64,000 bases of DNA, taken from positions 1-64,000 of the forward strand of contig JACZJC010000070.1 of NCBI GenBank assembly GCA_014860745.1, written 5' to 3'. Positions 41,996 through 56,457 of this stretch are shown here, one piece after another. A program made the position numbers and the translations under genes. The notes beneath the pieces are model-generated. The model ran no database searches, was not told where the DNA came from, and worked only from the letters and a program-made list of their open reading frames with translations. This DNA is from Anaerolineales bacterium (GTDB lineage Bacteria; Chloroflexota; Anaerolineae; Anaerolineales; Villigracilaceae). Each line of letters opens with the position of its first letter. Position 1 is the stretch's first letter.

Positions 41996-44465
<2,470 letters not shown>

Positions 44466-44492: not shown

Positions 44493-45248
44493 TCAGTCTT
44501 TGAGTTGATTCACAAGACTGCGCAGGCCTTTTGTAACAGCATGATCGGGGAATCGGATCGCAAAAATACCGGAACTGGCAAGAGTCATCATTTCATCGGA
44601 ATGACCCAGAACTGCGCCCACTGTGGCGCCATAGGTCTGTTCCACGCGAGCGCGGACATCTTCAAAGTCAAATGTGGAAGGCACCTTGTTTACCAGGATC
44701 AGCATCTTCGGCACATCCAGTTTCTTGGCGACATCCACGGTTACGGCGGTGCCCTGGTAATCCTGCGAATCCGGGCGCAGAATGATGACCAGGGCGTCGG
44801 AGATGGCAATGGAGAGCAGGGTTTCTTCGTTCAAGCCCGGATGCGTGTCGATCAAAAGATAATCGAGTTTTAGTTTTTCCACCACATCGCGGAAACCGTC
44901 ATTCAACAGGCCCACATCGTAGCCTTCGCGCAGGATGCGGGCAATTTCCCCGGCTTTGATGCTGGAGGGGATCAGGAAGACCTGCCCCTTGATCTCGCCG
45001 CCGAGGTGGCCGGTCACATCGTGAGCTGCGTCTTCGATCGCGCATTTACCCCACAAATAATCATTCAGAGAATGGACCATTTCTGATTCATCGAGGTTAA
45101 AGAGAACATGGATCCCGGGCGATGCAATATCCGTATCCACCACACCCACACGCGCGCCATCCATTGCGAGAAGAGCAGAAATATTTGCAGTCGTGTTCGA
45201 TTTTCCCGTACCCCCGCGAAACGAGTGAATTGAAATGATCTTGGACAT
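44493..45248 (-). CDS. MinD/ParA-like ATPase (module A)
   Basis: A 251-residue deviant Walker ATPase. The P-loop is FRGGTGKSNTTAN (residues 10-22) with the signature first Lys replaced by Arg. DTDIASPGIHVLF follows, as does LLIDTHPGLNEETLLSIAISDALVIILRPD, the Walker B/switch region. It is closely related to the protein at 48379 (shared SIHSFRGGTGKSNTTAN and THPGLNEETLLSIA). No C-terminal amphipathic membrane-binding helix typical of true MinD is obvious, so a regulatory or positioning ATPase is more likely than Z-ring control. It is divergent from the sigma-factor gene. Confidence 0.88.
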   Translation of the reverse strand: MSKIISIHSFRGGTGKSNTTANISALLAMDGARVGVVDTDIASPGIHVLFNLDESEMVHSLNDYLWGKCAIEDAAHDVTGHLGGEIKGQVFLIPSSIKAGEIARILREGYDVGLLNDGFRDVVEKLKLDYLLIDTHPGLNEETLLSIAISDALVIILRPDSQDYQGTAVTVDVAKKLDVPKMLILVNKVPSTFDFEDVRARVEQTYGATVGAVLGHSDEMMTLASSGIFAIRFPDHAVTKGLRSLVNQLKD

Positions 45249-45398
45249 CTTCTCTCTCCAAATTTTTAATGGGTTTTCGTTATTATTTGACCTTTCCTGG
45301 ATTATAGCCCAACTAATTTGAAAGTCAATTGCCCCTGTTCTATGTTATATTCTGTGAAATTCATCAACCCCTTTTCCCCATCAACCACCACCAAGTAT

Positions 45399-45953
45399 AT
45401 GGAAAACACCTCCAATTCACCCTTTCAAGGTCCCAGCGACGAGCTTCTCATCCAGCAGTTCAAGGATGGCAGCCAGAGCGCATTCGACCAGTTGTATTAC
45501 CGCCACCTTCCAAAGGTATTCAAGAGGGTCCGCTATGTGGTTCCAGAAAACGATGTGGAGGATGTAACCCAGGAAATATTCATCGCTGCATTGAACTCGC
45601 TTTCCTCTTTCCGAGGCGACGCAAAATTCAGCACCTGGCTGCGAACTTTAACCAATTACAAAGTGGCTGAGTTTTACAGAAGACGCACTCGTAAACAGGA
45701 GCCCCTCCTTTCCCCGCTTTCGGATGCATCCGCTCACACCACCGGCAGTTCCTCCAAAACAATGGAGGAAAGGATCTACCTTCAGCGGGCCCTTCAAGAC
45801 CTGCCCGAAAATTACAGGGAGATCATCATGCTCCGTTTTGCCGAAGACCTCCAGTTCAATGAGATTGCCGAACTGATCAGCCAGAACCTTGAAGCGACCA
45901 AATCCCTTTTCCGCAGAGCCATCGCCGCACTCCGCACTCATCTGGATAAATAA
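45399..45953 (+). CDS. ECF-type RNA polymerase sigma factor
   Basis: A 184-residue sigma-70 family protein with region 2 (FDQLYYRHLPKVFKRVR; DVTQEIFIAAL; STWLRTLTNYKVAEFYRR) and region 4 (LPENYREIIMLRFAEDLQFNEIAELI). I chose the ATG at 45399; an upstream in-frame start at 45318 overlaps the promoter region (TATATT near 45346-45351). Directly downstream, one base away, is a membrane protein with an anti-sigma-like N-terminus, then a PrsW-type protease. This suggests release by regulated proteolysis. Confidence 0.9.
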   Translation: MENTSNSPFQGPSDELLIQQFKDGSQSAFDQLYYRHLPKVFKRVRYVVPENDVEDVTQEIFIAALNSLSSFRGDAKFSTWLRTLTNYKVAEFYRRRTRKQEPLLSPLSDASAHTTGSSSKTMEERIYLQRALQDLPENYREIIMLRFAEDLQFNEIAELISQNLEATKSLFRRAIAALRTHLDK

Positions 45954-45954
45954 C

Positions 45955-46422
45955 ATGGACCAAATTAACGAACAATTCAATCCACAACAGGATAACCAAC
46001 TGGCGGAGTTTGCCGATCAGGTAATGCAGGGAAAGCTCAACCGTCCCGCTTCATCCCTGACCGATGAACTGCTCGGCCTTAAGGAAACAATTCTACGCCT
46101 CAGCAATGGCTTCCCTCCCAACCCGCTGGACGATGCCGCCATTAAACAGATGCATGTGCGTCTCAAAGCCCGCATCCGCCGTGAAGAAAAAGCGGCCAAG
46201 CCGTCTTTTTGGAAAAAGTGGTTTGGCAGGGATGTCTCCCCCCAGCTTGGCCTGGCATTTACCATCCTCGCCGTTCTGATAGTGGTTTTTGTCAGCACCC
46301 CCTCATTGACGGCCCCGGGCTCCACCACCACTGGGACCGCGTCCACACCAGTGAATTTTATAGCGGCTGCCGTGTTGGCAGCGGTTTTATTTGTCGTTTT
46401 TTGGGTGACGCGCAGAAAATAA
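45955..46422 (+). CDS. Putative membrane anti-sigma factor
   Basis: A 155-residue protein with a cytoplasmic N-terminal part of about 80 residues (LAEFADQVMQGK; LLGLKETILRL), like the N-termini of Chloroflexota anti-sigma proteins, and two membrane helices near 100-117 and 134-152 separated by a Ser/Thr-rich loop. It lacks the HxxxCxxC zinc motif, so the assignment rests on position one base after the sigma gene and on topology. A terminator follows 28 bp later, then a PrsW-type protease gene. Confidence 0.65.
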   Translation: MDQINEQFNPQQDNQLAEFADQVMQGKLNRPASSLTDELLGLKETILRLSNGFPPNPLDDAAIKQMHVRLKARIRREEKAAKPSFWKKWFGRDVSPQLGLAFTILAVLIVVFVSTPSLTAPGSTTTGTASTPVNFIAAAVLAAVLFVVFWVTRRK

Positions 46423-46449
46423 ATTCTCGAATTCAACATGCTATGTATG

Positions 46450-46477
46450 CGGTGACAGGCGAACTGTCACCGTTTTT
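46450..46477 (+). terminator. Terminator after sigma/anti-sigma pair
   Basis: CGGTGACAG (46450-46458) and CTGTCACCG (46464-46472) form a 9-bp stem with a 5-nt loop and five Ts. Confidence 0.88.
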
Positions 46478-46483
46478 ATTTCC

Positions 46484-46512
46484 TTGCAGGCCCTATCCAG
46501 TTACGGTATTAT
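46484..46512 (+). promoter_or_regulatory. Promoter of PrsW operon (leaderless)
   Basis: TTGCAG (46484-46489), a 17-bp spacer and TATTAT (46507-46512). The ATG at 46519 begins 6 nt after the -10 box; no Shine-Dalgarno is present. Confidence 0.6.
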
Positions 46513-46518
46513 TCCTTC

Positions 46519-47625
46519 ATGGTCGTCTGGATTGCCCTTACTTTTGCCTTTCTTGCCCCGCTTGCGTTCTTGTGGTTTTTAAGAAAATTCGACCTGTACT
46601 CCACTGGTAGATATTTCATAAACATCGTCACCCTGGTTTGTGGGTTGATCGCCTACCAATTTGCGGCGCAGATCAACCCGGCCATTGTCAATGCGGGCTG
46701 GGCAACGTGGGATCAGGTTATCCGAGTATATGCCCCGCTCGGTGAGGAAATCCTGAAGAGTTTGATTCTGATTTACCTCGTCCAGCGCGCGGACTTTAAT
46801 TATGTGGTGGATGGCGCGCTCTATGGCTTTGGCGCGGGAATCGGTTTTGCGATCATTGAGAATTATGAATATGTGACGGGTGACCCGGGGATCGCATTAT
46901 CAATTGCAGTTGCACGGGTGTTCTCCACCAACCTCGTCCACGCCACGGCAAGCGGATTGATCGGCACGGCACTGGCATATCGCCGTGGTGATCCCAGTTG
47001 GCGGGGTTGGGCGGTGGCGGGAGGTGGGTATGTTGTTTCCATCTCGCTGCATATGGCGTTCAATACCATGGTCAGCGCCGGGGCGTTCCTCGTGATTGCG
47101 ATAATTTTTGGGCTGACCGGCATGACGTTGATCTGGTTTGTGATCAAGCGCGGCATGCACACCCAGAAACAATGGGTGGGTGAAAAGCTTGGCGTTGAAG
47201 ATCGCGTCACAAAAGCGGAAACAAAGGCTGTTACAAGCATCGATAAGATTATTGATGACTTGTTGAAACCGTTCGAAGACAGGTTTGGAAATGAGAAGGT
47301 TCCTGCGGTGAAGGAATTGCTTTCCAAACAGGCGGAAATTGGCATCAAGCGCAAGTTATTGGATGCCACGCCAAGCCCGACGAAGCGTAAGGAAGTTAAA
47401 GAAATTGTTCTGCGGCTTGGCAGAGAAATGGAATTGCTGCGCAGCCAGATCGGGATGTACCCGATGATGTTCGTGCGGACGGTCTATCTCGAACAGGATG
47501 TGAAGGTTTGGGATGCGATCAATGCCCGGGTGGCAGAGGCAAGCACAGGTCAAAAAGGAGGCGGGTTGTGGGACCGGGTAACTGACCGGGTTAAACAATC
47601 CGCTTCACAGGATGATAAGTCATGA
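46519..47625 (+). CDS. PrsW-family intramembrane metalloprotease
   Basis: A 368-residue protein with about seven membrane segments in residues 1-215 and a roughly 150-residue cytoplasmic C-terminus rich in charged helices, longer than in Bacillus PrsW. Catalytic motifs are E76-E77-I-L-K80, GFAIIEN with E114-N115, H141 (NLVHATASG) and a final H in LHMAFN. In Bacillus, PrsW cleaves the anti-sigma factor RsiW; here a sigma/anti-sigma pair lies just upstream. It overlaps the cyclic-nucleotide-binding gene by 4 bases and leads an operon with a MinD-like ATPase. Confidence 0.88.
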   Translation: MVVWIALTFAFLAPLAFLWFLRKFDLYSTGRYFINIVTLVCGLIAYQFAAQINPAIVNAGWATWDQVIRVYAPLGEEILKSLILIYLVQRADFNYVVDGALYGFGAGIGFAIIENYEYVTGDPGIALSIAVARVFSTNLVHATASGLIGTALAYRRGDPSWRGWAVAGGGYVVSISLHMAFNTMVSAGAFLVIAIIFGLTGMTLIWFVIKRGMHTQKQWVGEKLGVEDRVTKAETKAVTSIDKIIDDLLKPFEDRFGNEKVPAVKELLSKQAEIGIKRKLLDATPSPTKRKEVKEIVLRLGREMELLRSQIGMYPMMFVRTVYLEQDVKVWDAINARVAEASTGQKGGGLWDRVTDRVKQSASQDDKS

Positions 47626-48356
47626 AGAGCGATGTTCTTAATCAATTACAAAAGACCACTATTTTCAAGAATGTTTCGGATGATGTGCTGGCTGAAGTCG
47701 CTGTAAAAGCATCCACCCGTAAGCTGGCAAAGGATGAAATCTTGATGCGGAAGGGGGAAAAGGGTGATTCCCTTTTTTTGATCCATGACGGCTGGGTAAA
47801 GATCGTCACCGTCGACTCAAAAGGCGATGAATTGATCATCAACAAGTGCGGGCCGGGTGAGATGATCGGCGAGATGGCGCTGCTGGACGGAATTCCGCGC
47901 TCGGCGACGGTCATCGCATTGAGCGATGCGGAAGTGCTTGAATTGAAACAGGATGTTTTTGAGGAAATTCTCAAGCAGCGTGCGGATGTCTCGCTGGCCA
48001 TCATCCGCAGTTACTCCGAGCGGCTTCGCTTTTCGACAACCTATATTGAAAAAGCCATCGATTGGTCGCAAAAGACAGCGGAAGGCGATTATTCGTTTGC
48101 GGAGCAGGCGCAGCCCTTGATCAACAGCGCCGGTTCGGATGATGATAAAGCCGCGCAGCTTCTCTCTGCCTTCTTTGCAATGGTGCGGAAGGTGAAGGAA
48201 CGCGAAGATGGCTTGAAGCAACAACTCGAGAAATTAACATTTGAAATCGATCAGGCGCGCCGCAAGCAGGAGTTCGAGGAGATTACCGGCACGGAGTTTT
48301 ACGCAAACCTGAAGGAACAAGCCAGGGCATTGCGTCAAAAACGCGCGCAGGGATGA
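47622..48356 (+). CDS. Cyclic-nucleotide-binding domain protein with conserved C-terminal tail
   Basis: A 244-residue cytoplasmic protein. The N-terminal cyclic-nucleotide-binding domain (about 10-130) has an intact phosphate-binding cassette, GEMALLDGIPRSATV with E84 and R93, as in cAMP-binding proteins. There is no DNA-binding domain, so it is not a Crp-type regulator. A helical middle leads to a C-terminal motif (201-244) with EIDQARRKQEFEEITGTEFY that is shared with the GAF protein at 51437. It overlaps the protease gene by 4 bases and precedes a MinD-like ATPase by 22 bp. Confidence 0.88.
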   Translation: MKSDVLNQLQKTTIFKNVSDDVLAEVAVKASTRKLAKDEILMRKGEKGDSLFLIHDGWVKIVTVDSKGDELIINKCGPGEMIGEMALLDGIPRSATVIALSDAEVLELKQDVFEEILKQRADVSLAIIRSYSERLRFSTTYIEKAIDWSQKTAEGDYSFAEQAQPLINSAGSDDDKAAQLLSAFFAMVRKVKEREDGLKQQLEKLTFEIDQARRKQEFEEITGTEFYANLKEQARALRQKRAQG

Positions 48357-48378
48357 ATTCACCAGATTTGGAGACGTT

Positions 48379-49164
48379 ATGAACAAAGGCAAAATTGTAT
48401 CCATTCATTCTTTCCGTGGCGGGACAGGTAAATCAAACACCACGGCCAACCTTGCGGCACAGGTTGCCATGGCAGGCAAACGGGTGGGGGTGGTGGATAC
48501 GGACATCCAATCTCCGGGCATCCATGTTCTTTTTGGTTTGGATGAAAACAAGATGGGCAAGACCATGAACGATTTCCTGCACGGAAAGGCTACCATTCGT
48601 GAGATCGGTTTTTCGATTGGCGATCACTCCAGCGGCGGAGAAGGACGCGCGAAACTCGCCGGGAAAAATCTCTGGCTGTTTCCATCCAGTATTCGCGGGC
48701 GGGAGATCAGCCAGATTTTGAAAGAAGGGATTGATTTCAATCTTCTGAATGAAGGGTTGCAAAAAACGATCACAGAGTTTGATCTGGATTATCTTTTTAT
48801 TGATACGCACCCCGGCTTGAACGAAGAGACTTTGCTTTCGATTGCCACGTCCGATATTTTGATCATCATCCTGCGCCCGGATAACCAGGATCTGCAAGGC
48901 ACCTCGGTAACTGTGGACATTGCCCGCAGTTTGGACGTGCCGAACCTTTTATTAATGGTGAACAAAGCCCTGCCTAAATATGATTTTGCGGAACTTAAGA
49001 AAGAGATCGAAGATAAATTCAATGCCCCTGTCACAGGTATCCTTCCGCTTTCTTTCGACCTCGCGGATAATGCCAGTAATGATCTTTTCTCGCTGCGCTT
49101 CCCGGACCATGACTGGTCAAAAGCATTGCGCGGCGTGGCAGAAGCTGTTCTTGCAGTTGAATAG
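48379..49164 (+). CDS. MinD/ParA-like ATPase (module B)
   Basis: A 261-residue deviant Walker ATPase with P-loop FRGGTGKSNTTAN (about 12-24), DTDIQSPGIHVLF, and LFIDTHPGLNEETLLSIATSDILIIILRPD. It is the paralogue of the ATPase at 44493 with a slightly longer middle (GDHSSGGEGRAKLAG). Genomic partners are a PrsW protease and a cyclic-nucleotide sensor upstream, and a Cys-rich protein and winged-helix-like protein downstream. This suggests a nucleotide-switched regulator of a signalling complex rather than plasmid or septum positioning. Confidence 0.88.
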   Translation: MNKGKIVSIHSFRGGTGKSNTTANLAAQVAMAGKRVGVVDTDIQSPGIHVLFGLDENKMGKTMNDFLHGKATIREIGFSIGDHSSGGEGRAKLAGKNLWLFPSSIRGREISQILKEGIDFNLLNEGLQKTITEFDLDYLFIDTHPGLNEETLLSIATSDILIIILRPDNQDLQGTSVTVDIARSLDVPNLLLMVNKALPKYDFAELKKEIEDKFNAPVTGILPLSFDLADNASNDLFSLRFPDHDWSKALRGVAEAVLAVE

Positions 49165-49173
49165 GAGAATGCG

Positions 49174-49386
49174 ATGAAATGCTGGCATTGTGAAGAGGCC
49201 GCGCGCGCTTCCTGCGCTTTCTGCGGGCGTTTTGTGTGCAAGGATCATGCGGCGACCATGTCCACTTTTATTACGATGTTCGTGGGTGCAAATAACACGC
49301 CCAAGGGACTCGCGGTCGCAAATGTCATCTGGTGCGGGGAGTGTGAGCCGCAGCCGGAACCGATCAGCATGCCCGAACTTTATTGA
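49174..49386 (+). CDS. Small B-box-like zinc-finger protein
   Basis: A 70-residue protein with CWHC, CAFC, C-x2-DH and a final CGEC: Cys at 3, 6, 14, 17, 22 and 54, 57 with His25. This spacing resembles B-box-type zinc binding (CEEAARASCAFCGRFVCKDH). It starts 9 bp after the ATPase gene, with AGGAG before the ATG, and lies within the operon. It may be a zinc-dependent adaptor. No closer assignment is possible. Confidence 0.75.
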   Translation: MKCWHCEEAARASCAFCGRFVCKDHAATMSTFITMFVGANNTPKGLAVANVIWCGECEPQPEPISMPELY

Positions 49387-49401
49387 GATGGAGAGGTTGC
49401 C

Positions 49402-49776
49402 ATGCCCGGAGTCTTTGATCGGTTAAATAAAGAGATAAAGGATAAGCAGCAGGAAGGCGGTATTACCGCCCTCGACCTGGCTGACTTGCAGCCTGCCTTG
49501 CGCAAGATCATGCGGTTGATGCTGCGCGAATTGCAGATGACCTATCCGCGGCTGTGCGAGGCCATGGATGACACGCCCGAAAAAGATCGCCTCACACGTG
49601 ACGAGTTGGATGATTCCCTTTCCATGCTGACTCAACAATTCTGGCTGATTCGGATCGGCGAAGGCGAAAAGGCCATTTACAAGGTGAATCTGCGGCGCAA
49701 GGAAGGCAGTAAACTTGCGGCTGGAATATGGTCTGCGTTGGATGCGAAATTGAAAGACAAACCCAAAGATGGATGA
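49402..49776 (+). CDS. Small winged-helix-like protein paired with MinD-like ATPase (module B)
   Basis: A 124-residue protein: a charged N-terminal helix, then ADLQPALRKIMRLMLRELQM, a helical TRDELDDSLSMLTQQFWLIRI wing-like region with EKAIYKVNLRRK, and the ending AGIWSALDAKLKD. It shares this order of motifs with the 110-residue protein at 44133, although identity is low. It is the last gene of the PrsW/cyclic-nucleotide/MinD operon and is followed by a strong terminator. Confidence 0.72.
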   Translation: MPGVFDRLNKEIKDKQQEGGITALDLADLQPALRKIMRLMLRELQMTYPRLCEAMDDTPEKDRLTRDELDDSLSMLTQQFWLIRIGEGEKAIYKVNLRRKEGSKLAAGIWSALDAKLKDKPKDG

Positions 49777-49778
49777 AT

Positions 49779-49809
49779 AAAAACGACGGGCTGAAAGCCC
49801 GTCGTTTTT
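49779..49809. terminator. Bidirectional intrinsic terminator
   Basis: AAAAACGACGGGCT (49779-49792) pairs with AGCCCGTCGTTTTT (49796-49809), a 14-bp perfect stem with a 3-nt loop. It separates the + strand operon from the convergent cyclase gene. Confidence 0.95.
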
Positions 49810-49810
49810 A

Positions 49811-51361
49811 TTACTGTTCCTTTATTTGTTCCCCCAATTCGAAAAGCTGCATTGGTTTGTTTTTTCCTTTAAGGGAAACTTCACCAAGAGATCTGCATTC
49901 ATAACTTGATTGGATCGCCTGCTGTACCCGCTCCGAAACGATGATCTGGTTCTTTTCGGCGTGGTTCATCATGCGCGCTGCCGTGTTCACGGTATCTCCC
50001 AGCACATTGTATTCCCGACGCCCGCGCGGTTCACCGATCTCGGCCACGAAGGCCGGGCCTGTGTTGATCCCGATCTGGCAAAAGATATCGGGCTGCACAT
50101 TTCCAATTGTGGGAGCCTTGTGATTGGCATTTTTGATGATATCGCGAATGGCAATCGCTGCGGATGCAGCCCGCAGTTCGTCATTGGTATGGGCATTCGG
50201 CACTCCGAAGTAGATCACAATATCCGAGCCTGCCAGGTGGTAGGTGACTTTCTTCAACACGCCGCCGCGCGATTCCACCGCGGCATTGATGAGGGAAAAT
50301 GCGCGCGAAAAATTAAGCGCCAATTTTGTCTCTTCCCCGGGTAATGCCCGGTCCGCGGATTCGGGCAGGCCGATAAAGTTGACGAACATGATGGTGGGCC
50401 GCGGAAAATCGGGCGGTATTTTCCTGTCGGCTGCGCTTTCCACAATCAGCGAAAGCACAGGCGCGGGGATATAGCTTGCCATCGGCTCGATGGTGTTGAG
50501 CAGGTCAAGGATATTTAACATGACTTCGTTCTTGTCACGTGTCAGCAAAACATTGGAGGCCATGCGCCGCCCAACAGGGGTGATTTCATATTCGCCGAGC
50601 TTATCCTCTGAAAGATCGTCGACCACCAGGAAATAGCCCGGATTACCCTCTTCGAAACGGAAATCATTTGCAACCCGCTCATGTGCTTTTTGCGATAAAT
50701 TCACCCTCTCATTGCGGCCATTGCTTTCGGTCAGCTTGGCCTGTTGCACATCCTTGCCGAGCAGAACATGCTCCATGCGGCGTGGCGTGCCAATATCCGC
50801 AGTGAGGTAACGGCCGCAGTGAATGCCGATGCGCATTTGCAAATTGACGATTCCCGCAGGGGTTTCGATCTCTGCAAATTCCTTCATTGCCCGTTGCATG
50901 CGCAGCCCGGCTCGCACCGCTCGCAGGGTATCGTCGTTCTTTTCCGTCTTTCGAAAGACGACCAGCATGGCATCACCGGTGAATTCCACCAGTTCGCCGC
51001 CAGACTTGCTGATTACCGAGATCATTTCCGAAAAATATTTTGTCAGTTGTGCCAGCAGGTTTTCCGCGCCGTCGCGCCCCTTGGATGAGTTTGCTTCCAT
51101 TAATTTTGTAAAACCGGCCAGGTCTGTGAACATCATTGACCCGTGCTGCCATTCAGTCCTCACATCCCCCGGCTTTAATTTATTGATCGAGATCTGTCGA
51201 GAAGTGTAATCATGCAGAATTCGCTGCAACGTCCGCAAATGTTTGTGGACGTCGATCATGATCTCCACAGACGGGTTGCCCCACATGGAGGCGTACATTT
51301 CCGCCGGAAGCAAATATCGCAGGCGGCTTTCAATTGTGGTAAGCGGCGACTCTGGGAGCAT
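49811..51361 (-). CDS. Tandem-domain class III adenylate/guanylate cyclase
   Basis: A 516-residue soluble protein with two cyclase homology domains. Domain 1 (about 70-240) keeps both metal Asp, D80 (MFTDLAGFTK) and D130 (EFTGDAMLVVF), but lacks the Asn/Arg pair (Q206, L210). Domain 2 (about 318-490) has lost the first metal Asp (N328) but keeps K371 and N459...R463 (GDTVNTAARM). Together they would form one complete active site, as in the C1/C2 halves of mammalian adenylyl cyclases. The base-selecting position is N452, so ATP preference is likely but not certain. A TATAAT 7 nt before the ATG suggests a leaderless mRNA. Confidence 0.88.
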   Translation of the reverse strand: MLPESPLTTIESRLRYLLPAEMYASMWGNPSVEIMIDVHKHLRTLQRILHDYTSRQISINKLKPGDVRTEWQHGSMMFTDLAGFTKLMEANSSKGRDGAENLLAQLTKYFSEMISVISKSGGELVEFTGDAMLVVFRKTEKNDDTLRAVRAGLRMQRAMKEFAEIETPAGIVNLQMRIGIHCGRYLTADIGTPRRMEHVLLGKDVQQAKLTESNGRNERVNLSQKAHERVANDFRFEEGNPGYFLVVDDLSEDKLGEYEITPVGRRMASNVLLTRDKNEVMLNILDLLNTIEPMASYIPAPVLSLIVESAADRKIPPDFPRPTIMFVNFIGLPESADRALPGEETKLALNFSRAFSLINAAVESRGGVLKKVTYHLAGSDIVIYFGVPNAHTNDELRAASAAIAIRDIIKNANHKAPTIGNVQPDIFCQIGINTGPAFVAEIGEPRGRREYNVLGDTVNTAARMMNHAEKNQIIVSERVQQAIQSSYECRSLGEVSLKGKNKPMQLFELGEQIKEQ

Positions 51362-51368
51362 AAATCAA

Positions 51369-51374
51369 ATTATA
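51369..51374 (-). promoter_or_regulatory. -10 box of cyclase gene (leaderless)
   Basis: Perfect TATAAT on the - strand ends 7 nt before the ATG at 51361. No Shine-Dalgarno and no clear -35 are visible. Confidence 0.55.
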
Positions 51375-51436
51375 CTTGAAACACCGGGAGGGTTTATTTC
51401 ACATATTGACTGATGTTTACCTCCCTCTTTGCGTGG

Positions 51437-52336
51437 TTATTTTTTCTCATCCCTTGAACGCATTTCTTTCGCCTTATCTCGTAAATCTTGAAAAAACCTG
51501 GACTCGGTAATTTCTGATACTTGCTTGGCACGCCGGGATTCGTCGATTTCGATCTTGAGCTTGGCGATTTCCTGTCGTAGGGAGGCTTCACGAATATACC
51601 CATCCAAAGCAGCGGTTGCCAGCAGCACCAAAGCCTCCAGCACATCATCATCCGCAAATGGGATGATTTCCCCCGTCTCCGCATTTTTTGCATTGATCAA
51701 TTGAAGCACACCGATCACCTGCCCATCATTGTTCTTGAGCGGAATGGTGAGAAAGGATTTGGAACGGTATTTGGTGCGCGCATCGAAAGCCTTTGTACCG
51801 GAGAAATCGAAGCCATCGGCCTGATATGCATCGGCAATGGTGATGCGCTGGTGGGTTAATGCTGCGTGGGAGGCAACATTCGCCCGATTCTCGCTCCCAT
51901 CCGCATTGTGCAAACGGACCGGATAAAAAGGGATCTCATTCCCGCTTGTTCCGCCCATAGCCATATTCAGGGAAGTATTCCGCAGAATTACAAATTTGAG
52001 CTCGTCATTTTCCATTAGATACAGAGTGCCGGCATCTGCATTCGTCACAGCTTGCGCTTCCATCACCAGACTTTCGAGCAGGCGGTTGAAATCCTTTTCA
52101 GCCGAAAGGGAAACACCGATTGGAATCACCTTCCTTAATAGGCGTAATTGGTTGTCGCGGAAGACGACACTGCGCGCCATCGCATCCAGCATCCGCGCCA
52201 ATTGACCGAGATCTCCTGCATCGTTCGCAATGTCGCTCAGGAGGTCGGACGTGTATTCGCCGTTCTCCACAGCTTTCACGGCGTGGATGATGCGTTTCAG
52301 CGGGGAGGATGAGCTGATCATAGTAAGGTTGGACAT
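51437..52336 (-). CDS. HAMP-like/GAF signalling protein with conserved C-terminal tail
   Basis: A 299-residue soluble protein. An N-terminal HAMP-like helical part (ENGEYTSDLLSDIA; GQLARMLDAMARSV) leads into a GAF domain (about 80-255) of the kind found in cyclic-nucleotide phosphodiesterases and cyanobacterial cyclases (LTIPLKNNDGQVIGVLQLIN). The C-terminal 43 residues (EIDESRRAKQVSEITESRFF region) match the tail of the cyclic-nucleotide-binding protein at 47622 without gaps. ATG at 52336 with AAGGAA upstream is preferred over GTG at 52366. It lies 75 bp upstream of the cyclase gene on the same strand. Confidence 0.82.
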   Translation of the reverse strand: MSNLTMISSSSPLKRIIHAVKAVENGEYTSDLLSDIANDAGDLGQLARMLDAMARSVVFRDNQLRLLRKVIPIGVSLSAEKDFNRLLESLVMEAQAVTNADAGTLYLMENDELKFVILRNTSLNMAMGGTSGNEIPFYPVRLHNADGSENRANVASHAALTHQRITIADAYQADGFDFSGTKAFDARTKYRSKSFLTIPLKNNDGQVIGVLQLINAKNAETGEIIPFADDDVLEALVLLATAALDGYIREASLRQEIAKLKIEIDESRRAKQVSEITESRFFQDLRDKAKEMRSRDEKK

Positions 52337-54273: not shown

Positions 54274-55341
54274 TTATGAAGCGGGTGGAATCTCTTCCAC
54301 TTTTTGAATGACCATGCCCGGTGCGCTTCTTGTTCCGAACCAGGTCATACCCACACCGCCAATCGCTGCGAGAGTGATAAGGAAGGATGGCAGCCAGCCT
54401 ACGCAGGGGATCAAACCCACCAAACCAACTACCAGCATAAGCAGGAAGGTGCCAAAGCCTATGGAAAGGACAGGCGCCCAGGTCTGGTTGATGGCTTTAG
54501 TGAAGCGGTCGCCGACTTCCTGGCCGAGTGCAATCATGCCGAACAACCACGCCAGCGGTGCAATGAATGCCACGATCAAGGCGATGGGGATGAGGATGAT
54601 GGTGACAGCCATGATGAGGATTGCCACAGGAATGACAATGAATGCCAGCAGGCCATACCCCCCAGCAACGAATGGTTGACGCATGATGGCATCGCCGACT
54701 CGTTCCATCTGCGGCTGAAGGAAGAGCGCCAGCAGCATGCCAACCAACGCCACCAGCAAGGCTTCCCCGACCCGGCCGGCCACACTCCACAACGGGTTGA
54801 CATTCATGTTAATTTCCGGTGCTCCGGGAACACCCGGAATGTTTGGTACGTTGGGAACATTCGGCGCATTGGGAACATCAGGCACACTGATGACTGGCGG
54901 GGCATTATTTGTGATATTGCCGGTTACTTCCGCGCCGGGCTCCTTTTGCACATTTCCGCCGATGGTGGCAATATCGCCATCCACGAGGGCGGTTTCAGTC
55001 AGCAGAACCTGCCCGCCAACAATGACAATGTCGCCGTCGATGGTGCCGGAGATGGTCAGATTGCCGCCGATCAAAGCCACGTCGCCGTTCACATCGCCCA
55101 GGATCGAAAGGTTTCCTCCGATGAGCGCAACGTCCCCGTTCACTTTGGCGCCTTCCTCGATACTTGCGTTTCCGCCAAATACCGCCAAGCTTCCGTTCAA
55201 TTCATCGCCGCTTTCCAACGTGTAATTTTGCCCGAACAGGACCACGTCCCCACCGGGTCCCTGCGCAAACACGCTGCGAGTGGGTAAAAATAATAGTGCC
55301 AGTAATAAGATGACGCTGACCAGATTTTTTTTCATTTTCAT
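54274..55341 (-). CDS. Exported bactofilin-like beta-solenoid protein with membrane domain
   Basis: A 355-residue protein. A signal-like segment (NLVSVILLLALLFLPTRSVFA) is followed by a repetitive beta-helical domain (about 30-150) with repeats such as VNGDVALIGGNLSI and IDGDIVIVGGQV. A proline-rich linker of repeated PNVPN-type units and about four membrane helices follow. The repeats resemble bactofilin/polymer-forming domains, but placed outside the membrane. The ATG at 55341 has AGGAG 7 nt upstream and overlaps the anti-sigma gene by 4 bases. It is probably a target or output of the sigma factor. Confidence 0.75.
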   Translation of the reverse strand: MKMKKNLVSVILLLALLFLPTRSVFAQGPGGDVVLFGQNYTLESGDELNGSLAVFGGNASIEEGAKVNGDVALIGGNLSILGDVNGDVALIGGNLTISGTIDGDIVIVGGQVLLTETALVDGDIATIGGNVQKEPGAEVTGNITNNAPPVISVPDVPNAPNVPNVPNIPGVPGAPEINMNVNPLWSVAGRVGEALLVALVGMLLALFLQPQMERVGDAIMRQPFVAGGYGLLAFIVIPVAILIMAVTIILIPIALIVAFIAPLAWLFGMIALGQEVGDRFTKAINQTWAPVLSIGFGTFLLMLVVGLVGLIPCVGWLPSFLITLAAIGGVGMTWFGTRSAPGMVIQKVEEIPPAS

Positions 55342-55868
55342 ACCGTTACTCCTTGCGGCTTGTGTGCAAACCGCCAGATGGATACAACCCAGATTAATCC
55401 CATGCCGGCCAGTGTGGAGAGCATGACCATCCACGCATAGGGCGGGATGAAATTCGGCGCCATGCGCGCCAGCACCCTTAAGATTTCACTGAAGGCCTGC
55501 ATGGATGTGAACACGAATAGAAAATAGCCGACCACTGCAGTGAGCCATTCCACTGGCGCAGAGATAAAAGCATACACAACCGGAGCGGCAAACCAACCCA
55601 GCAGAGATACCCCGCTCACGATCAACACGATCAGCCCCCACAACCTGCGCCGGCGTTCCGCCACTTTTTGGACGGCCAGCCTGTGCTGGAAGCGCAGGGC
55701 GAACCCTGCCGTAGGGGAGGATGCTTTAGCAGAACGCAGAGCAAGCCCGGTCTCGGCAAGAGCCGAACAGGATCTGCAAATCCGCAAATGCGAATCAAGC
55801 TCGCGCTTCTCCGCGGCATTCAAAATTTTATCGGCCAACAGCCAGGTTTCAAAAGGCTGGTGATTCAT
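55338..55868 (-). CDS. Zinc-finger (HC2) anti-sigma factor
   Basis: A 176-residue protein with an N-terminal zinc-binding anti-sigma motif, HLRICRSC (HxxxCxxC, about residues 27-34), and two or three membrane helices (about 76-98, 104-125, 150-168). Such proteins hold an ECF sigma factor inactive at the membrane. It overlaps the upstream sigma gene by 20 bases and the beta-solenoid gene by 4, so all three are translationally coupled. Confidence 0.85.
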   Translation of the reverse strand: MNHQPFETWLLADKILNAAEKRELDSHLRICRSCSALAETGLALRSAKASSPTAGFALRFQHRLAVQKVAERRRRLWGLIVLIVSGVSLLGWFAAPVVYAFISAPVEWLTAVVGYFLFVFTSMQAFSEILRVLARMAPNFIPPYAWMVMLSTLAGMGLIWVVSIWRFAHKPQGVTV

Positions 55869-56457
55869 GATGTCTCCTTTCTATTTCGGCAAGCAAGTCG
55901 TCTTCCTCTTCCTGCCACATGCCTGCCAGTTCCTTGCGGGCACGATGTAGGCGGCTTTTTACCGCGCTGACTGTCAACCGCAAGGATTCAGCAATTTCCT
56001 TTTCTGAATAGTCGTACCAATACCTCATGATGATCGCCGCGCGGTCGGTTGTATCCAGGTCTTTGAGCATCGCATGGACTCTTTCCTGCGTCTGCCCTTT
56101 GATGGACTCCGCTTCAGGGTTGGGTGCATCGACGTCGGGCAGTTCGAACGAATTGCCTTCATCGTCTTCCGCATCCATCGAAAACATGAAAAATTTCCTG
56201 CGCCGCAATTTGTCGATGCAATAATGCGCCGCAATCGAAAGCAGCCAGGTCGCGAACGGGCGCTTCTGGTCGTAGCGGTGCAAGTGCTGGTAGGCGCGCA
56301 AAAACGTTTCCTGCGCGGCATCCTCCGCGAGTTCAGGTTCGCCCAACATGCGATAGCACAGATTGAACACCGGGGTCTGATAGGTTTCGACAAGCCGGGT
56401 AAATGCTTCATCGTCGCCCTGTTGCGCCTGGGCAACCCAGGTTTGCTCTTCGTTCAC
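55849..56457 (-). CDS. ECF RNA polymerase sigma factor (SigW-like)
   Basis: A 202-residue sigma-70 protein with region 2 (FTRLVETYQTPVFNLCYRML; EDAAQETFLRAYQHL; PFATWLLSIAAHYCIDKLRRRK) and region 4 (AIIMRYWYDYSEKEIAESLRLTVSAVKSRLHRARKEL). An acidic 25-residue linker (DAEDDEGNSFELPDVD) separates them. Its cognate anti-sigma factor overlaps its 3' end. The unit probably responds to envelope stress, by analogy with SigW. Confidence 0.92.
   Translation of the reverse strand: MNEEQTWVAQAQQGDDEAFTRLVETYQTPVFNLCYRMLGEPELAEDAAQETFLRAYQHLHRYDQKRPFATWLLSIAAHYCIDKLRRRKFFMFSMDAEDDEGNSFELPDVDAPNPEAESIKGQTQERVHAMLKDLDTTDRAAIIMRYWYDYSEKEIAESLRLTVSAVKSRLHRARKELAGMWQEEEDDLLAEIERRHHESPAF

Follow-up and report, generated by a model that had tools for sequence, protein, structure and literature searches.

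A C-terminal tail on many bacterial sensors coincides with a MinD-like ATPase subfamily, its probable docking partner

The stretch studied here, called the window, comprises 64,000 nucleotides of an Anaerolineales bacterium (Chloroflexota, family Villigracilaceae; assembly GCA_014860745.1, contig JACZJC010000070.1). It codes for two sensor proteins that end in a similar tail, one binding cyclic nucleotides (cNMP; P0001) and one with a GAF domain (P0002), and for two MinD-like ATPases, MinD-A (P0004) and MinD-B (P0003). The tail is a discrete module carried by many kinds of sensors, it co-occurs tightly with this ATPase subfamily, and its variants are matched to the ATPase paralogues. Judging from sequence comparison, we consider it probable (roughly 0.7) that the tail serves as a C-terminal module for docking and output, through which sensors act on the ATPase.

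Results

The tail of the two window proteins

The original prediction held that the C-termini of the cNMP and GAF proteins align without gaps, in spite of unrelated upstream domains. Both points were confirmed. Residues 194-240 of P0001 align gaplessly with residues 249-295 of P0002 (18/47 identical, 34/47 positive), with 43.9 bits and an E of 9e-10 for this single pairwise comparison, while the parts upstream match two different Pfam families, cNMP_binding and GAF. The proposed length of ~43 residues becomes 47 in the profile. At the N-terminus of P0002 there is also a weak HAMP match (17.3 bits against a Pfam cut-off of 25).

How specific is this likeness? A profile was made of 14 tails from other families, after 7 of the 21 rows of the larger tail profile, A2, had been dropped (both tails of the window itself and five from its family), and circularity is thus excluded. 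Among the 937 six-frame open reading frame (ORF) segments of at least 40 residues in the window, this profile matched only P0001 and P0002. The two window tails scored 68.3 and 53.4 bits and the next-best segment 2.6 bits; shuffled C-termini of the same two proteins (n=2000) reached 12.8 bits at most. The two-row profile A1 found only the P0001 and P0002 places at E <= 1 in the whole 4.3 Mb genome. Pfam gave no match above its cut-off on either tail, NCBIfam gave none that touches them, and no solved structure matched the tail below E 0.09. Two sub-threshold Pfam matches, TF_AP-2 (E 0.08) and HEPN_RiboL-PSP (E 0.023), overlap the tail. Among the entries listed by searches of open-access literature, and in excerpts of PMC3140520 and PMC2887384, no description of the tail or of the ATPase was found.

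A C-terminal module on many sensors

The tail sample consists of 151 tail ORFs in 125 loci, some of them present twice (e.g., L061 and L106). The loci came from three sources: matches in a genome collection, plasmids (of Nostoc, Pseudanabaena, and Deinococcus), and a species-genome scan, in which 80 of 203 confirmed places were kept. The scan loci belong to Chloroflexi, cyanobacteria, Chthonomonas, Fimbriimonadaceae, Rubrobacter, and Pseudonocardia, and further to Nitriliruptorales, Trueperaceae, Acetothermia, Rokuibacteriota, and Planctomycetia; many of these records are metagenome-assembled. Genes were called simply as the longest ORFs, and 12 of the 80 scan loci gave no tail ORF.

The last tail copy lies at most 56 residues from the protein end in 150 of the 151 tail ORFs. 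The single exception (L080, 8117-10684) has a receiver, a GAF domain, and the tail, followed by an alpha/beta hydrolase. The consensus of 141 distinct tails is R-E-x-x-L-[KR]-x-[QE]-V-x-x-L-R-I-E-I-D-E-x-[KR]-[RK]-x-x-Q-V-A-E-I-T-E-[TS]-[DE]-[YF]-F-x-x-L-x-x-[KR]-A-x-x-[LM]-R, in which L5, L12, I16, D17, I28, F34, L37, and R45 are kept at 91-99%.

As had been anticipated, the profile search showed the tail on different sensory proteins, namely, cNMP, GAF, Cache, CHASE, Tll0287, receiver, PrsW, and STAND proteins and HAMP receptors. The domain census covered 68 tail proteins (67 of 128 that passed a 60%-identity filter, and L115 as a manual addition), which match 42 Pfam families. Among the matches listed, HAMP was found in 44 of the 68, receiver in 14, cNMP and dCache in 9 each, HisKA in 8, GAF in 6, a riboflavin-transporter-like membrane domain and sCache in 5 each, and Tll0287 in 4, with PrsW, CHASE3, CHASE4, PAS, and Nif11 in one or two each. 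The STAND protein (L115, 8159-10597; NB-ARC and TPR) matches tail positions 10-41 only (E 3e-7). It adjoins the ATPase.

The 30 residues that precede the tail often resemble the end of a HAMP helix, with D at -19, F at -10, M at -7, and V at -3, each in 76-84% (n=140); therefore, the usual layout is a sensor, a HAMP-like linker, and the tail. After HAMP there commonly stands a kinase or a cyclase, in the place taken here by the tail. The AlphaFold2 model of P0001 (7 sequences; mean predicted local distance difference test, pLDDT, 78.8, moderate confidence) gives the tail a two-helix shape, with one helix at 175-222, a break at 223-224 at the I-T-x-T step, and a second helix at 225-243. Twelve cyanobacterial proteins carry, behind the tail, an extra copy of its second half, an arrangement that suits a short binding unit more than a simple coiled coil. 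Without filters more second copies appear, one of them in the Anaerolineae locus L162, together with a few short matches elsewhere in tail proteins (e.g., L099 and L149) that are probably due to chance.

Co-occurrence of the tail and the ATPase

In Chloroflexota the tail was searched with profile A1 (E <= 0.01) and the ATPase with P0004 (E <= 1e-45); in Cyanobacteria and Deinococcota the tail profile was the 21-row A2. These genome searches score first-look candidates only, and absences hold for that search. In Chloroflexota (301 genomes) 42 had the tail, 41 the ATPase, and 40 both; the corresponding numbers were 31, 29, and 29 in Cyanobacteria (194) and 4, 3, and 3 in Deinococcota (111), giving 77, 73, and 72 for the three phyla pooled (606 genomes). 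The presence of the pair switches even inside one genus of the window's family, where one genome has both (G064) and another neither (G096). Eighteen tail-bearing genomes were picked for variety from the 80 scan loci, and 15 hold the ATPase, whose best match has 57-71% identity to P0004.

The association is also visible in gene neighbourhood. The tail had been expected to recur near MinD-like genes, and the ATPase was indeed present in 39 of the 68 scan loci with a called tail ORF, as a direct neighbour in 25. In the ATPase-positive Chloroflexota and Cyanobacteria 131 tails were counted, without a second partial copy in G485, and 72 of them have the ATPase within 10 kb. The other 59 are more than 10 kb away or on another contig, a number inflated by draft assemblies; the association is thus more than operon structure. 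Among the called genes of the 125 loci no fusion of tail and ATPase in a single protein was found.

Tail variants and ATPase paralogues

In 13 of 148 tails the residues V25 and F34 are replaced by F25 and Y34. Eleven of these thirteen lie on the same strand and no more than 300 bases upstream of a MinD-B, and the remaining two (G112 and G018) have the start of a MinD-like gene ~35 and ~30 bases away from the tail match. Not one of the 135 V25/F34 tails adjoins MinD-B, and 32 adjoin MinD-A. MinD-B was missed by gene calling at L049 and L050. The cNMP tail of the window, which is outside the 148, fits the pattern: it is an F25/Y34 tail, and the MinD-B gene starts 22 bases downstream of its gene. 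Such matching of variant and paralogue is what direct recognition would leave after duplication.

The ATPase subfamily

The P-loop of the tail-associated subfamily is HSFRGGTGKS. The MinD/ParA deviant Walker A motif, KGGxGK[ST], has a signature lysine, and at this position 83 of 85 aligned ATPases have arginine, one has histidine, and one methionine; the tail-associated ATPase thus departs from the deviant Walker A in its signature residue. The AlphaFold2 model of P0004 (pLDDT 93.8) shows a MinD-type P-loop fold. Its top Foldseek matches are MinD 1hyq (E 1.3e-17, TM 0.80) and 4v03, and other close folds include Soj/ParA, McdA, and FlhG. Pfam AAA_31, ParA, and CbiA are all above their cut-offs. 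By its predicted fold, then, the ATPase is placed in the MinD/ParA superfamily.

By the tests made, it is not the bacterial MinD. With TIGR01968, the bacterial MinD model, P0004 scores 48.7 and P0003 50.8 bits against a cut-off of 212.9, and the ATPase likewise falls far short of the archaeal MinD cut-off. The bacterial MinD carries a C-terminal amphipathic membrane-targeting helix; P0004 ends at residue 251, and its last model helix, 237-250, after which there is no extension, may or may not be of this kind. The genome itself holds two such ATPases, P0004 and P0003, and the next relatives reach at most 33.1 bits.

The window locus

The positions of the genes and tails are collected in Table 1.

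Table 1. Genes and tails of the window locus (positions in the 64,000-nucleotide window).
Feature	Position	Strand	Basis or remark
cNMP-binding sensor P0001, 244 aa, with linker helix and C-terminal tail	47622..48356	+	Pfam cNMP_binding E 2.2e-26
Tail of P0001, residues 194-240	48201..48341	+	F25/Y34 variant, the one paired with MinD-B
GAF sensor P0002, 299 aa, with C-terminal tail	51437..52336	-	Pfam GAF E 2.8e-9
Tail of P0002, residues 249-295	51452..51592	-	Common V25/F34 variant
MinD-like ATPase A, P0004 (MinD-A)	44493..45248	-	Member of the tail-coinciding subfamily
MinD-like ATPase B, P0003 (MinD-B)	48379..49164	+	Paralogue of P0004 (56% identity)
Small winged-helix-like protein P0006, beside MinD-A	44133..44465	-	No Pfam match; profile family
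Small winged-helix-like protein P0005, downstream of MinD-B	49402..49776	+	No Pfam match; profile family
PrsW-type intramembrane protease	46519..47625	+	4-base overlap of its ORF with start of cNMP-tail gene
Protein with two class III nucleotidyl cyclase stretches	49811..51361	-	Pfam Guanylate_cyc, 2 stretches
Sigma-70 family (ECF-like) sigma factor	45318..45953	+	Putative member of the system

The cyclase protein is a plausible source of the cNMP ligand for P0001. Upstream of the cNMP-tail gene (45318-47625, plus strand) lie in succession the sigma factor of the extracytoplasmic function (ECF)-like type, a 177-residue protein without Pfam match and membrane-anchored in appearance, and the PrsW protease. 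Because PrsW elsewhere cleaves an anti-sigma factor, this part of the locus may control its ECF-like sigma factor. Ten of 64 loci have relatives of the sigma factor in the vicinity of the ATPases, and almost all of these loci come from the window's family. PrsW-type domains are also fused in one protein with cNMP and the tail (L058, 6934-8772) and with GAF and the tail (L066, 8813-10195). A second ECF-type sigma factor, together with a protein having a weak zf-HC2 (anti-sigma type) match, lies on the minus strand at 55338-56457.

A Pycsar anti-phage system, which consists of a cyclase and a cNMP-binding effector (TIR or membrane), was considered and rejected. P0007 matches PycC models; P0001 matches Pycsar effector models over 4-143, its cNMP part, and has no TIR match in Pfam.

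Neighbours in other loci

A permease-like neighbour or piece is found in 17 of the 125 loci, two of them only through a winged-helix domain. We rejected it as the general output, since in cyanobacteria it occurs in only 2 of 194 genomes. In the plasmid loci of Nostoc and Pseudanabaena (L086 and L089) tail genes have Nif11 or NHLP peptide-export genes and cyclic-nucleotide proteins in their vicinity, and L086 has in addition a DUF7005 protein. On a plasmid of Nostoc sp. NIES-3756 (L090, 4793-8261) genes for an anti-sigma factor antagonist, an ATP-binding protein, and a PP2C phosphatase precede that of a CHASE2 protein whose tail match is partial; the set is possibly a partner-switching module.

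Discussion

The original prediction proposed a common docking partner of the two tails, possibly a MinD-like ATPase or a winged-helix protein. The ATPase gains support from the co-occurrence across genomes, from which direct docking would follow only by inference; the winged-helix protein follows the tail less closely in Chloroflexota.

Several observations weigh against docking on the ATPase. The Fisher probabilities of co-occurrence (3e-46 in Chloroflexota, 2e-32 in Cyanobacteria) ignore kinship. The ATPase is missing from the available DNA (8 kb flanks or contig ends) in 29 of the 68 scan loci. The tail occurs without the ATPase in the Chloroflexota genomes G116 (weak) and G293, in the cyanobacterial G396 and G510 (weak, with an internal stop each), in G589 of Deinococcota, and in G309, G314, and G317 of the 18 genomes picked for variety; the ATPase occurs without the tail in G185, which is 80% complete. 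Only the window's family and L134 carry the F25/Y34 variant, which may thus reflect a single event; duplication there extends to the winged-helix proteins. Downstream genes vary from locus to locus, as the rarity of the permease-like neighbour in cyanobacteria illustrates. Finally, co-occurrence is no proof of contact, and what the tail binds could be a third protein whose presence parallels that of the ATPase.

Among the other explanations, the one that survives best is that the ATPase determines where in the cell the tail proteins are placed, the tail being a cargo tag and not a signal output. The closest folds include MinD, Soj/ParA, McdA, and FlhG, all of them positioning ATPases, as relatives of MinD and ParA position cargo; moreover, membrane receptors, often clustered in bacteria, are numerous among the tail proteins. 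However, the tail is carried also by proteins whose matched domains are soluble (receiver, cNMP, and STAND), it often follows HAMP, which is a signal-transmitting linker, and the winged-helix and transporter neighbours suggest a regulatory output. We hold positioning to be unlikely.

The tail might also dock on the winged-helix protein or on a membrane effector, with the ATPase as a further component of the pathway. The reading of P0005 and P0006 as winged-helix-like is ours, from their sequence pattern; one relative, at L101, has a weak MarR_2 match (E 0.006). This family stands near the ATPase in 32 of 64 loci. Its domain lies inside a permease-like protein (L101, 197-2074; E 3e-25). Near the system, the ABC exporters L092 4153-6558 and L095 931-3078 and the permease-like proteins L061 2027-4117 and L118 11778-13715 also contain matches, though weaker ones (E 6e-8 to 5e-5); the Nostoc permease relative L086 8241-10835 gave no winged-helix match. 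Because it occurs inside membrane transporters, the domain may be an adaptor, with a role beyond DNA binding alone. Yet the winged-helix profile found 69 of the 301 Chloroflexota genomes at E <= 1e-3 and only 27 at E <= 1e-9, a cut picked after the list had been seen, and all 27 are among the 41 with the ATPase. By this search, of the ATPase and the winged-helix protein, the ATPase is the closer companion of the tail. The tail variant likewise tracks the ATPase paralogue, although the two winged-helix proteins of the window are paralogues too. Docking on the winged-helix protein or a membrane effector thus seems to us rather doubtful, more so than positioning.

The least probable explanation, a mere coiled-coil extension of HAMP or GAF helices or an S-helix serving dimerisation, with the ATPase an incidental neighbour, could appeal to the frequency of HAMP among tail proteins, to the P0001 model, where the first half of the tail prolongs the linker helix, and to the sole solved-structure matches (E at least 0.09), which are a designed scaffold and two coiled coils, but it was rejected, since the two-row profile finds nothing at its cut-off in 259 of 301 Chloroflexota and tail presence tracks one MinD-like subfamily across genomes, since the predicted helix breaks at the conserved I-T-x-T step, and since the second half is repeated alone in cyanobacteria and the STAND protein matches from position 10 only.

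Comparison with known systems

A close likeness to the proposed docking on the ATPase is offered by MinD-MinE/MinC, ParA-ParB, and FleN-FleQ, where an ATPase of the MinD/ParA fold also works with a short partner element. A solved relative of the ATPase with a short partner peptide is MinD with MinE 12-31 (3r9i), and by analogy the tail-associated ATPase may work like MinD or ParA with their short partners. The difference is that here the partner element is common to many unrelated sensors, and the ATPase has arginine in place of the signature lysine. Chemoreceptors with CheW and CheA offer another parallel, in that many HAMP receptors share one hub, but here the role of hub would fall to a MinD-like ATPase, contacted through a C-terminal tail of 47 residues. 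PEP-CTERM tags with EpsH differ in being a protein-sorting signal, whereas the tail stands on signalling proteins.

The S-helix, as described in the excerpted text of PMC1592074, is a helical element of ~40 residues on many signalling proteins, almost always placed between two signalling domains, with an ERT signature in the central heptad. The tail resembles it as a short helical element on many signalling proteins. However, the S-helix joins two domains, while the tail ends the protein and coincides with one ATPase, and the ERT signature is absent from the consensus of the 141 tails. The conservons (Cvn) of Actinomycetota also couple a sensor to a P-loop switch protein in an operon (PMC13343842); their sensor is histidine-kinase-like and works with a roadblock protein and a Ras-like GTPase, in contrast to the MinD-like ATPase and tail found here.

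A possible mechanism and its meaning

The proposed chain of events would begin with a change of sensor state that alters the helix leading to the tail, often a HAMP linker. The tail would then dock on its dedicated MinD-like ATPase and shift the ATP-bound or dimer state; comparative evidence points to this docking step, and an effect of the tail on ATP turnover is conjecture. The ATPase would relay the signal to the small winged-helix proteins, or to the same domain fused to membrane transporters, an output step suggested only by gene neighbourhood and fusions. In the window's family the relay would perhaps also pass through PrsW and a sigma factor. One arm of the window locus would consist of the cyclase, the cNMP-tail protein, whose gene overlaps that of PrsW, MinD-B, and a winged-helix protein; here a cyclic nucleotide, probably the product of the adjacent cyclase, would influence MinD-B via the cNMP-tail protein. 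In the other arm the GAF-tail protein would act on MinD-A, together with the second winged-helix protein.

We incline slightly to the view that this is an undescribed mode of signalling, in which about a dozen sensor classes share one interchangeable tail, an Arg-variant MinD-like ATPase, and winged-helix adaptors, some of them in membrane transporters. It would extend over Chloroflexota, Cyanobacteria, Deinococcota, Armatimonadota, and some Actinomycetota, with matched tail variants insulating duplicated hubs.

If so, it would represent a new class of bacterial hub, where sensors plug a common tail into a MinD-like ATPase and signal without phosphorylation or a second messenger as the sensor output. 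MinD-like ATPases would acquire a role beyond cell division, and many of the HAMP, Cache, GAF, cNMP, and receiver proteins that lack a known output domain would have a candidate partner to test. The F25/Y34 tail with MinD-B and the V25/F34 tail with MinD-A would then form a natural specificity pair.

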